DNA of 64,000 bases, taken from positions 1 to 64,000 of the forward strand of contig NZ_FOCX01000005.1 of NCBI RefSeq assembly GCF_900110215.1. Reading direction: 5' to 3'. Source of the stretch: Halorientalis persicus. Lineage in GTDB: Archaea; Halobacteriota; Halobacteria; Halobacteriales; Haloarculaceae. Under the pieces are notes generated by a model. It did not search any database, was not told the origin of the DNA, and was given only the letters and a program-made list of their open reading frames with translations. Numbering within the stretch: position 1 is the first letter of the stretch; the number at the start of each line of letters is the position of its first letter. Below are positions 2 through 5,623 of the stretch, piece after piece. The translations under genes were made by a program, and so were the position numbers.

Positions 2-310
2 GTCACCGCCGACCACGCAAAACATTTCATTTTAGCTGTATGTGAAGAGTTCGAAGATGATTTGATTGTGGTGCTTGATGGAGCACCGTATTTCCAGGCG
101 TCGGCCGTCACGGACCTAGCGGCCCGTGACGACCTCGCCTTCGTGACGCTACCCTCGTATTCACCGGAGTTGAATCCGGTCGAAGAATGCTGGAGACAGC
201 TGCAAAAGGCTCTTAGCAACCGTTTCTTTGACTCGCTCGACGAGCTAACAACAGCGATCGACACCGCTCTCGACAAACTCTCTGTTCCTAAAGTGAGCAA
301 TTACTTCTAG
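2..310 (+). CDS. IS630-type transposase, C-terminal part (cut by window edge)
   Basis: The reading frame is open to the first bases of the window and ends with TAG at 308-310, so only about 102 C-terminal residues are visible. VVLDGAP carries the second catalytic aspartate of the DDE nuclease, and LPSYSPELNPVEECW carries the final glutamate and the proline-rich signature of IS630/Tc1-type transposases. Base composition here is clearly lower in GC than in the neighbours, as expected for an insertion sequence. The last four bases overlap the stop codon of the convergent gene that follows. Whether the full transposase is intact cannot be judged. Family assignment rests on the motifs and is fairly safe. 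Confidence 0.85.
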   Translation, partial: VTADHAKHFILAVCEEFEDDLIVVLDGAPYFQASAVTDLAARDDLAFVTLPSYSPELNPVEECWRQLQKALSNRFFDSLDELTTAIDTALDKLSVPKVSNYF

Positions 311-1395: not shown

Positions 1396-1794
1396 AGTCG
1401 TTCCGGGCTGTGACGGACCGTGCCCTCACCCAGGCGAACCGTCCCACCACAGCCGTTCGTACTAGTCAGTCCGCAACCAGTTATTTAGAGTTTACAGTTC
1501 GTAGATTTATCGCCACCGACAGGTCGAATCATGGGCGAGTGGCGGAGGCGGTAGATGTGCCTGTCGCGGTCTCGGAGTCGGCACGCATCCGGCGCGCAAA
1601 GCGCGCCGGTTCACCGAAAGACGATCCTGCTCGCCTCGCTTCGCTCGGCTGTGCGGGCTGGGACTTTCGAGTGCTCACGAGAGCGGGGCTCTCGTGGCAT
1701 CCCGAAAATCTCCGATTTCCCGCTTGCAGCCAGAAGTCTTCGACTTCTGGCGACGTCACGAGCGAGCGAAGCTCTCTCGAACGACAGTAAAAAT
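1396..1794. other. Gene-free interval with a cluster of short perfect hairpins
   Basis: No credible gene in 399 bp. Several hairpins have exactly nine-base arms and a three-base loop. Perfect: 1589-1609 (CCGGCGCGC, loop AAA), 1676-1696 (CACGAGAGC, loop GGG), 1730-1750 (CCAGAAGTC, loop TTC). Imperfect: 1702-1722 (loop TCC, two mismatches) and 1759-1779 (loop GAA, one mismatch). A bulged stem pairs GATG-TGCC near 1552-1559 with GGCA-CG-CATC near 1579-1588. Loops differ, so these are not simple copies. Similar 21-nt hairpins lie in and before the tnpB gene at 4-5.5 kb. The interval could be a decayed mobile element end or a structured RNA; neither is shown. Confidence 0.6.
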
Positions 1795-2796
<1,002 letters not shown>

Positions 2797-3822: not shown

Positions 3823-4234
3823 GCGCGCCGATAACCGAATCGGACGCGATCCGCAACCAACGAACGAACAGTCGGTGACCAACTGGTAGCCAGCGCCTAG
3901 CCACGCTCCCGGACTCCGTAGGAACATCGTACTCCCGGCTCCCTGTCTCGGAGGTGGGGAGTACACGATTACTGACCTGTACTATTCGGAACATAACGAA
4001 GGGCGTCGGTGAGAGAGACTGATAGAGATAAGAGCGCATACTCCCGCCTTCCCGTGAGTGACGAGTGTTCCGACGCTCTGTCGGAACCGAGGAGCGAACA
4101 GGCGGGGGTCGAGCGGACAGCAGGGTGGGACAGTCCACCGTTCTATTGCAGTGCCGGATTTCCCACGATTTCACTTTCACCCTGGATGGCTGAGATATAT
4201 GTCTCTCACAATCCAGAGATGGGGTACGGCGACG
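3823..4234. other. Intergenic interval with inverted repeats upstream of tnpB
   Basis: No gene seen. An eight-base inverted repeat pairs GTACTCCC (3929-3936) with GGGAGTAC (3957-3964) and may end the thioredoxin transcript. A larger fold has an outer stem CCCGCCT (4043-4049) with AGGCGGG (4100-4106). Inside it GTTCCGACG (4067-4075) pairs with TGTCGGAAC (4079-4087) around a CTC loop, with one G-T pair. The left end of the TnpB element must lie somewhere in this interval, but I could not place it. Confidence 0.5.
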
Positions 4235-5548
4235 ATGGGCGAGGTCACGAAAACGCTTGAACTGAAGCTTGTGGACCCGACCCTCCACAAGCGGCGGAAG
4301 CTTCGTGAGACACGGGACGCCTACCAGAACGCGCTTCAGGCCGCCTTCGCCGCTGGCTGTGACACACAGTCAGCGGCCAACGACGTGGTTGTCGAGTACG
4401 ACCTGAGTGGCTACGCCAAAAACGCCCTCAAGCAGTACGTCCCACAACTCCACAACAGCTACGACGCCGACGAGCTTCACGACGACCACCCGGTGCGGTT
4501 CACCAACGAGGGACTGCAACTCGACCATCAGCCACAGAACGCGATCGAGTGGTACGTCAAAGTCCCGCACCACGAGGATTACCACCTCTGGATTCCAGTA
4601 CGCGCCAATCCCGATCAGCGAGAGTGGCTGGAAGCGGTGTACGCTGACGATGCCGAGATGGGTGAAAGTCAGCTGTTCAAGCGCGACGGAACGTGGTATC
4701 TCCACATCACTGCTACCCGCGACGTGGCCGAGCAATCTGCGGCGTCCGCCGACGAGCAAACGCCCATCGGTGTAGACATTGGAGAAGCGAGTCTCGTCAC
4801 GGTGTGTCACCGTGACGACTCTGGTTCTCCTGTTCGCCCCGAACTGTGGGCCGACGACGGCAAGGCCGTTCGTCGGCTCCGCAAAACCTACTTCACCGCC
4901 ACAAGACGCCTGCAGCAGCGCGGCAGTGAGCGAATCGCAGACTCGTTCGGTGACGCTCTGTGGGACCAGATTGACGATATATTTCACCGCGTGACCCGCG
5001 AGGTTGTGGCATACGCAGAGTCCGTCGAGAACCCGGTGCTGGTGCTGGAAGACCTGACGGACATCCGCGAGAACATGGACTACGGCGCATACATGAATCG
5101 ACGGTTGCACGGATGGGGCTTTGCCAAGCTCCATGCACAGATTCGCTACAAAGCCGCCGAGACGGGGATTCCCATCGAGACGGTGAATCCCCGCAACACG
5201 TCGAAGGCGTGCCACGCCTGCGGTGAACATGGCTCCCGGCCACGACAGGCAACGTTCCGATGCTTGAGTGACGACTGTTGGGTCGGTGAGTACCAGGCTG
5301 ACGTGAACGGGGCGATAAACATTGCAGACCGCTACCGTAGTGGAGAGAGTCACCGCCGAAGCGACCGGAGTTCCCGGCAGAAGGCCGGTGACGATGACTC
5401 GGCTACGGATGGGGCCTCTTTGACCGGGCCACAAGACAGCCACGCCGTTAACGAATCGCGCAGCGATTCGTTCGCACACCAGAAATCTCCGATTTCTGGG
5501 GACAATGCTGAAACCCAGCAGGTAACGCGTGGAACGAATGCGTCTTGA
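4235..5548 (+). CDS. tnpB: TnpB, RNA-guided nuclease of an IS1341-type element
   Basis: TnpB proteins are RNA-guided DNA endonucleases related to Cas12. With the start at MGEVTKTLEL this copy has 437 residues, full length for haloarchaeal members. The RuvC catalytic residues are all present: D181 in IGVDIGEASL, E272 in VLVLEDLTD and D356 in YQADVNGAINIA. The zinc finger is complete (C326, C329, C343, C348), with the four-residue spacing in the second pair. An in-frame ATG at 4199 is possible, but the family N-terminus favours 4235. The last 60 residues are Ser/Asp-rich and poorly structured, and their DNA folds into perfect hairpins, consistent with overlap by a guide RNA. No frameshift is seen, so it is probably active. 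Confidence 0.92.
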   Translation: MGEVTKTLELKLVDPTLHKRRKLRETRDAYQNALQAAFAAGCDTQSAANDVVVEYDLSGYAKNALKQYVPQLHNSYDADELHDDHPVRFTNEGLQLDHQPQNAIEWYVKVPHHEDYHLWIPVRANPDQREWLEAVYADDAEMGESQLFKRDGTWYLHITATRDVAEQSAASADEQTPIGVDIGEASLVTVCHRDDSGSPVRPELWADDGKAVRRLRKTYFTATRRLQQRGSERIADSFGDALWDQIDDIFHRVTREVVAYAESVENPVLVLEDLTDIRENMDYGAYMNRRLHGWGFAKLHAQIRYKAAETGIPIETVNPRNTSKACHACGEHGSRPRQATFRCLSDDCWVGEYQADVNGAINIADRYRSGESHRRSDRSSRQKAGDDDSATDGASLTGPQDSHAVNESRSDSFAHQKSPISGDNAETQQVTRGTNAS

Positions 5549-5623
5549 AACCGACAGGCCGCAACACTCGGCCTGAAATCCCGTGGCGGGATTCCTCCGC
5601 GTTCACGCGGAGGAGGAGGTCAA
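5450..5623 (+). ncRNA. Candidate omega/re-RNA overlapping the tnpB 3' end
   Basis: Five hairpins follow in series. AACGAATCGC (5450-5459) pairs with GCGATTCGTT (5463-5472). CCAGAAATC (5479-5487) pairs with GATTTCTGG (5491-5499). CAGGCC (5555-5560) pairs with GGCCTG (5570-5575). AATCCCG (5577-5583) pairs with CGGGATT (5587-5593). TCCTCCGCG (5593-5601) pairs with CGCGGAGGA (5606-5614). Overlapping 3' RNAs of IS1341-type genes were described in Halobacterium (sotRNAs), and TnpB uses such RNAs with a guide taken from the flank beyond the right end. The 5' boundary is a guess; the 3' scaffold boundary is placed at TCAA. Confidence 0.65.
5611..5620 (+). promoter_or_regulatory. Shine-Dalgarno-like purine run inside the element's right end
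   Basis: AGGAGGAGGT precedes the ATG at 5627 by 6 bases. It is partly the 3' arm of the right-end hairpin (arm 5606-5614), so the mobile element appears to provide the ribosome-binding site of the downstream lipoprotein gene. Confidence 0.55.

Follow-up and report, generated by a model that had tools for sequence, protein, structure and literature searches.

The row of hairpins at 1589–1779 of the window (the whole 64,000-nucleotide stretch of Halorientalis persicus DNA analysed here) probably consists of modules of a family of short DNA elements of the Halobacteria that are non-autonomous, dispersed and apparently mobile, and whose stems and loops are rewritten by template switching. We observed a dispersed family with conserved linkers, covarying stems, presence or absence inside genes, and an enrichment of inverted loops. 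Each element strings together two or four hairpins with stems of 8–11 bp and C-G-closed loops of 3 nt, with conserved linkers of 4–8 nt between them. Under the mechanism we propose, copies would be spread by a putative trans-acting enzyme. Hairpins with a 9–10 bp stem and a 3-nt loop form easily once DNA is single-stranded, and a replicating strand would therefore repeatedly switch template at the hairpin. The switch would copy one arm from the other, such that stems stay perfect while their sequence changes, and would turn the loop into its reverse complement. In addition, the DNA hairpin may itself be under selection, for instance as a recognition site.

The hairpin row and its modules

The hairpins lie between genes 307–1395 (−) and 1795–2796 (−). 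The latter gene belongs to the PALP family and is cysteine synthase-like (cysM), and the hairpin interval is downstream of it. A sequence-only reading of the window had described five hairpins with nine-base arms and three-base loops (9-3-9), and we reproduced their coordinates, loops and mismatch counts exactly: 1589–1609 (loop AAA, 0 mismatches), 1676–1696 (GGG, 0), 1702–1722 (TCC, 2), 1730–1750 (TTC, 0; the stem reaches 10 bp, 1729–1751) and 1759–1779 (GAA, 1). Dinucleotide shuffling of 1550–1790 (2000 shuffles) gave on average 0.003 perfect hairpins, against the three observed, and no shuffle (0/2000) held at least three; the five with at most two mismatches compared with 0.63 in shuffled sequence (P = 0.0005). 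That is, such hairpins were commoner here than in shuffled sequence, and the fixed geometry that the reading took to be non-random stood up, both locally and as a genome-wide excess of three-base loops.

The genome-wide scan covered 859 kb of the window’s genome, of which 98 kb was intergenic by a simple gene caller. Intergenic DNA contained 30 perfect hairpins with a stem of at least 9 bp and a loop of exactly 3 nt (0.3 in shuffled sequence), and 0–5 hairpins at each of the other loop lengths from 0 to 12. The same scan in related haloarchaea, as the reading had proposed, gave a mixed answer: the excess was strong in relative G002 (23 versus 0.3 shuffled, with 0–4 at other loop sizes), G005 and G019 had 9 and 4 loop-3 hairpins, and there was little excess in the intergenic DNA of G003 (3) and G013 (2). 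The closing pair was 5'C-G3' in 91 of 102 intergenic loop-3 hairpins, and 51 of the 102 had GNA or TNC loops, nearly equally between strands. C-G-closed GNA loops form unusually stable DNA mini-hairpins. Loop-3 hairpin density was 0.57 per kb in convergent, 0.22 in co-directional and 0.11 in divergent intergenic DNA.

BLAST of the interval against relatives split it into recurring blocks (1585–1617, 1618–1666, 1664–1718, 1726–1755 and 1756–1793); the interval is a mosaic of several element modules. The full four-hairpin element is ~120 nt long and reads GTGGTT-a-TCATC-b-TAGCAG-c-CGACATCA-d-AACGAC, where a to d are hairpins, and 1676–1785 is a copy of it with conserved linkers and covarying stems. 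The features are as follows.

1585–1615, + strand: module F, a dispersed one-hairpin module, GCATC, hairpin CCGGCGCGC AAA GCGCGCCGG (1589–1609), GTTCAC
1618–1666, + strand: module T, a ~49-nt repeat with an inner CTCGCTTCGCTCG palindrome, 88–92% identity in several families of the order
1667–1787, + strand: four-hairpin element, family A (covariance model R1, 94.9 bits, E = 6.5e-18)
1676–1696, + strand: hairpin a, CACGAGAGC GGG GCTCTCGTG, aligned in A2 and A4
1697–1701, + strand: linker a-b, GCATC (family: TCATC)
1702–1722, + strand: hairpin b, CCGAAAATC TCC GATTTCCCG, 2 mismatches
1723–1729, + strand: linker b-c, CTTGCAG (family: TAGCAG)
1730–1750, + strand: hairpin c, CCAGAAGTC TTC GACTTCTGG
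1751–1758, + strand: linker c-d, CGACGTCA (family: CGACATCA)
1759–1779, + strand: hairpin d, CGAGCGAGC GAA GCTCTCTCG, 1 mismatch
1780–1785, + strand: conserved end, AACGAC, potentially pairing, in other copies, with a left-end GTGGTT

The window’s copy looks chimeric and atypical, because its left half resembles family C (GTGCTCA-hairpin-GGCAT-hairpin). Comparison of 1726–1785 with a second locus of the same genome showed the same linkers and different stems. From the unrelated arms, the sequence-only reading had concluded that the hairpins are not copies of one repeat; this was mistaken, as dispersed copies elsewhere in the genome and in other Halobacteria share the linkers. A regular-expression count found 6–12 copies of module F per 0.4–0.86 Mb in four Halorientalis genomes, and a copy at locus L031 (10560–10580) has identical arms and another loop. 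A Halorubrum copy has an extra basal stem of ~16 bp, giving a ~230-nt multi-branch fold with four arms (z = −7.6 as a DNA strand).

Several further observations concern the same sequences. Module T (1618–1666; also L020 and L047 18470–18518) is flanked elsewhere by inverted sequence resembling a tRNA T-arm (GGGATTTGAACC ... GGTTCAAATCCC). An AT-rich module, CTAAATTTTTAC ... GCAAAAATTTAGTACAAAAAC, occurs at window positions 1786–1797 (also L003, L031 10451–10540 and L036 9230–9310); the genes whose stop codon marks its start are unrelated, the hairpin inside it varies, and it may be a 3'-end element or a separate repeat. In Halorubrum salipaludis (L297 6640–7040), the Halorubrum copies lie within a longer GC-rich conserved stretch with basal stem CAGCCGCGAGGCGGGC/GCCCGCCTCGCGGCTG. 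Near the hairpin interval, at the contig edge, a DDE_3 (IS630-like) transposase gene is represented by its 3' part at window positions 2–310, which may point to rearrangement, because the neighbour of cysM differs among congeners.

Stem changes and loop inversion

We aligned 38 copies of the element. Standard pairs made up 97.5% of paired cells, and 21 pairs had changed on both sides. Double-change cells numbered 129 versus 31 when shuffled (0/500 shuffles), in an alignment that was fitted to the model and thus leans towards covariation; the covariation was lost on sliding the partner by 1–3 columns. Mean column entropy rose from 0.25 bits in the linkers through 0.40 in the stems to 1.56 in the loops. 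Some copies also carry hairpins in which one arm is uncompensated.

The published marks of template switching are arm homogenization and spacer inversion, and in yeast no inversions were seen unless the arms exceeded 9 bp (PMC8604942). For rRNA, the idea that hairpins are made and maintained by template switching has been published (PMC8794818). Here, stem changes were compensated, as described above, and among hairpins with the same arms we counted 12 reverse-complement loop pairs, related copies included, versus 5.4 with loops shuffled among arms (P = 1.5e-4). Many close copies differ in their loops only; between L301 and L321 (Halorubrum salipaludis), the sole difference in 120 positions is one loop, AAA>TTT. 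Exact reverse complements made up 55 of the 207 differing loop pairs among close copies, these pairs being non-independent, versus a pool expectation of ~10%. The compensated stems, reverse-complement loops and near-identical copies differing only in loops support the earlier reading’s suggestion that one process, such as template switching, generated the hairpins.

Presence or absence and distribution

Copies of the element are 88–93% identical over ~180 bp and lie between unrelated genes. Six congeners lack the element beside the window’s neighbour gene. The SRP54-peptidase spacer is 455 bp in the window’s genome, where it carries the element and other repeats too, versus 89 bp in G007 without it. 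Inside a dehalogenase-like gene, a 51-nt two-hairpin form is in frame in three congeners, decayed in a fourth and absent in four, with GACGTCGG present twice, flanking the insert. These comparisons were made between species and cover either gain or loss. The window itself has a second example, in the tnpB gene at 4199–5545 (+):

5445–5503, + strand: two-hairpin insert in the tnpB 3' end, ~57 nt with approximate boundaries, AACGAATCGC GCA GCGATTCGTT - CGCACA - CCAGAAATC TCC GATTTCTGG

This insert is absent from the tnpB copies L083 and L084. A second insert, of 54 nt, with ends TCGTCCG/CGAACGA and no clear target duplication, is present in the near copy L082, and all tnpB length differences are multiples of three. 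Because the two-hairpin relatives (51–57 nt) are present or absent in frame within genes, they appear mobile. The tnpB insert sits in the region expected to encode omega-RNA. We rejected the reading of the hairpins as tnpB right ends or parts of omega-RNA, because the tnpB hairpins at 5450–5499 are missing from other tnpB copies and are themselves inserts. By eye, the tnpB right-end hairpin (5593–5614, then TCAA) differs from the modules. The tnpB 3' ends hold two inserts, and most element copies are elsewhere.

A pattern combining the linkers with the base of one stem found copies in 10 of 39 relatives, although a few three-mismatch matches look like chance. At a threshold of E ≤ 1e-9, a covariance model built from eight copies, the window’s included, matched 81 of the 242 Halobacteria species sampled, spread over 32 of 73 genera, and a single genome held as many as 14 matches; since the elements are palindromic, some copies match on both strands. 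At E ≤ 0.001, the 1.9 Mb genome G026 of the order had 40 matches, the highest of 39 genomes. An exact-pattern scan of 84,980 species genomes returned 34 loci, all 34 in Halobacteria (Halorubrum, Halorientalis, Halarchaeum, Haloarchaeobius and one Halobacteriales MAG). The exact pattern had no match in viral contigs or phages, and we dropped a viral origin accordingly; a tnpB search in viral contigs also found nothing. A loose linker expression and a loose module T expression gave mostly chance matches in coding DNA, and these were discarded.

Alternative readings and related elements

A structured, non-coding, multi-branch RNA family, present in several copies per genome and kept by selection on RNA folding, would fit the covariation together with conserved unpaired linkers, the Halorubrum copy with its basal stem and four arms, and the placement of copies mostly at gene 3' ends or in convergent spacers. 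We nevertheless consider it unlikely. The strand-specific wobble tolerance of a structured RNA was not seen: in element orientation, G-U and A-C mismatches stood at 8:7 in the 34 loci and 12:13 in the alignment. In co-directional spacers six elements ran with the genes and five against, and the loops are hypervariable and show strand symmetry, with 58 purine and 61 pyrimidine loops. Short forms lie within coding genes, and Rfam returned no family match even at a relaxed threshold. Selection for RNA structure, the other cause named by the earlier reading, thus went unsupported. Because the stems are compensatory without a G-U bias, orientation is random and loop flips are enriched, we favour template switching at DNA hairpins over RNA selection. 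Given the small counts, the elements may be under a weak RNA constraint, and the conservation of the linkers, which template switching does not explain, could reflect a function, including one in RNA. Ordinary transcription terminators or chance palindromes would suit the position of hairpins at gene 3' ends and the GC-rich sequence, but are highly improbable: the shuffles exclude chance, on the transcribed strand the T-run that follows the cysM stop comes before the hairpins, individual hairpins have no U-tract after them, and copies also occur within coding genes.

Two other accounts keep the hairpins as DNA and differ over movement. The elements might not be mobile as such, the hairpins arising in place by template switching plus selection for DNA or RNA hairpins, while gene conversion or recombination between intergenic repeats spread the shared linkers. 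The template-switch signatures and mosaic modules agree with this account; whole elements with identical linkers between unrelated genes, and clean in-frame inserts in the tnpB and dehalogenase genes, speak against it, and we regard it as rather unlikely. Alternatively, the elements might resemble REP/REPINs or PATEs and depend for their movement on an IS200/IS605-type Y1 (HUH) transposase that works on single-stranded hairpins. They are hairpin-only, non-autonomous, dispersed and inserted near tnpB ends, and IS605-derived elements of 52 bp are described for Haloquadratum (PMC3119063). Against this, 55 of the 81 element-bearing genomes had a Y1 transposase, as did 107 of the 161 genomes without the element (odds ratio 1.07, P = 0.89, 242 genomes), which leaves 26 of the 81 lacking Y1; the complete genome G005 is Y1-free yet has strong element copies; and Y1 loci were not consistently flanked by modules. 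A Y1/RAYT partner was rejected on the lack of association and on G005, and this account as a whole also seems to us rather unlikely.

The closest known kinds are the Haloquadratum SMR/PATE elements and bacterial REP/REPINs. The sequence-only reading knew of no named feature of this type; the missing Rfam match agrees with that, whereas these related kinds qualify it. A search of the open-access literature found no description of the hairpin-element family, absence there not being proof. As described in the sections of PMC3119063 that deal with them, Haloquadratum walsbyi SMR-A/B are likewise haloarchaeal and without a transposase gene, with an enigmatic mobilisation; they are very short (80–110 bp), have inverted ends and insert in or near IS605-type elements, features that the elements here may share. 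The SMR size there is about 80–110 bp without coding capacity, compared with 51–57 nt and ~120 nt here, and the inverted terminal repeats come with no target duplication. Those sections describe no 9-3-9 strings, linkers, covarying stems or loop flips, and by description only the two are set apart. Haloarchaeal PATEs, or terminal-only IS605-type elements, are in the same sections also non-autonomous, palindromic, dispersed and as small as 52 bp, but PATE palindromes are IS605 ends, whereas the elements here have two to four unlike hairpins and no link to Y1.

REP/REPINs (BIMEs) with their RAYTs are likewise dispersed extragenic palindromes with two-hairpin units, enriched at gene 3' ends, and the hairpin elements are short, many-copy, mostly extragenic palindromic repeats. 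However, REPs keep their sequence, with a conserved palindrome and a tetranucleotide head (GTAG/CGTC type), whereas here the stems vary, the linkers differ from such heads, geometry and linkers stay, and no RAYT-like Y1 partner was found in the genome or flanking the elements. Quasi-palindrome template-switch mutagenesis (PMC8604942, PMC8794818) shares arm homogenization, together with spacer inversion where arms exceed 9 bp, including 3-nt examples, but concerns scattered mutations in yeast genes and rRNA, whereas here a whole repeat family bears the signature. What is new relative to the known kinds is that hairpin geometry is fixed and linkers are conserved while stems are rewritten and loops flip, by a mechanism that we in part infer.

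A wider reading, which we offer tentatively, is that the elements form a distinct class of mobile DNA defined by hairpin geometry and not by sequence. Such strings of 9–10 bp, 3-nt-loop hairpins with fixed linkers would be moved by a putative enzyme that reads single-stranded hairpins, while template switching continually rewrites arms and loops, such that the fold and linkers are kept and the stem sequence is not. A widespread multi-copy haloarchaeal repeat with stems that covary in the absence of RNA-type wobble would be a caution that covariation, which serves as the standard proof of RNA structure, may have a DNA-level origin as well. The elements would also give a natural system in which hairpin-templated strand switching can be counted in archaea, and would add a family of very short elements able to enter coding genes in frame.
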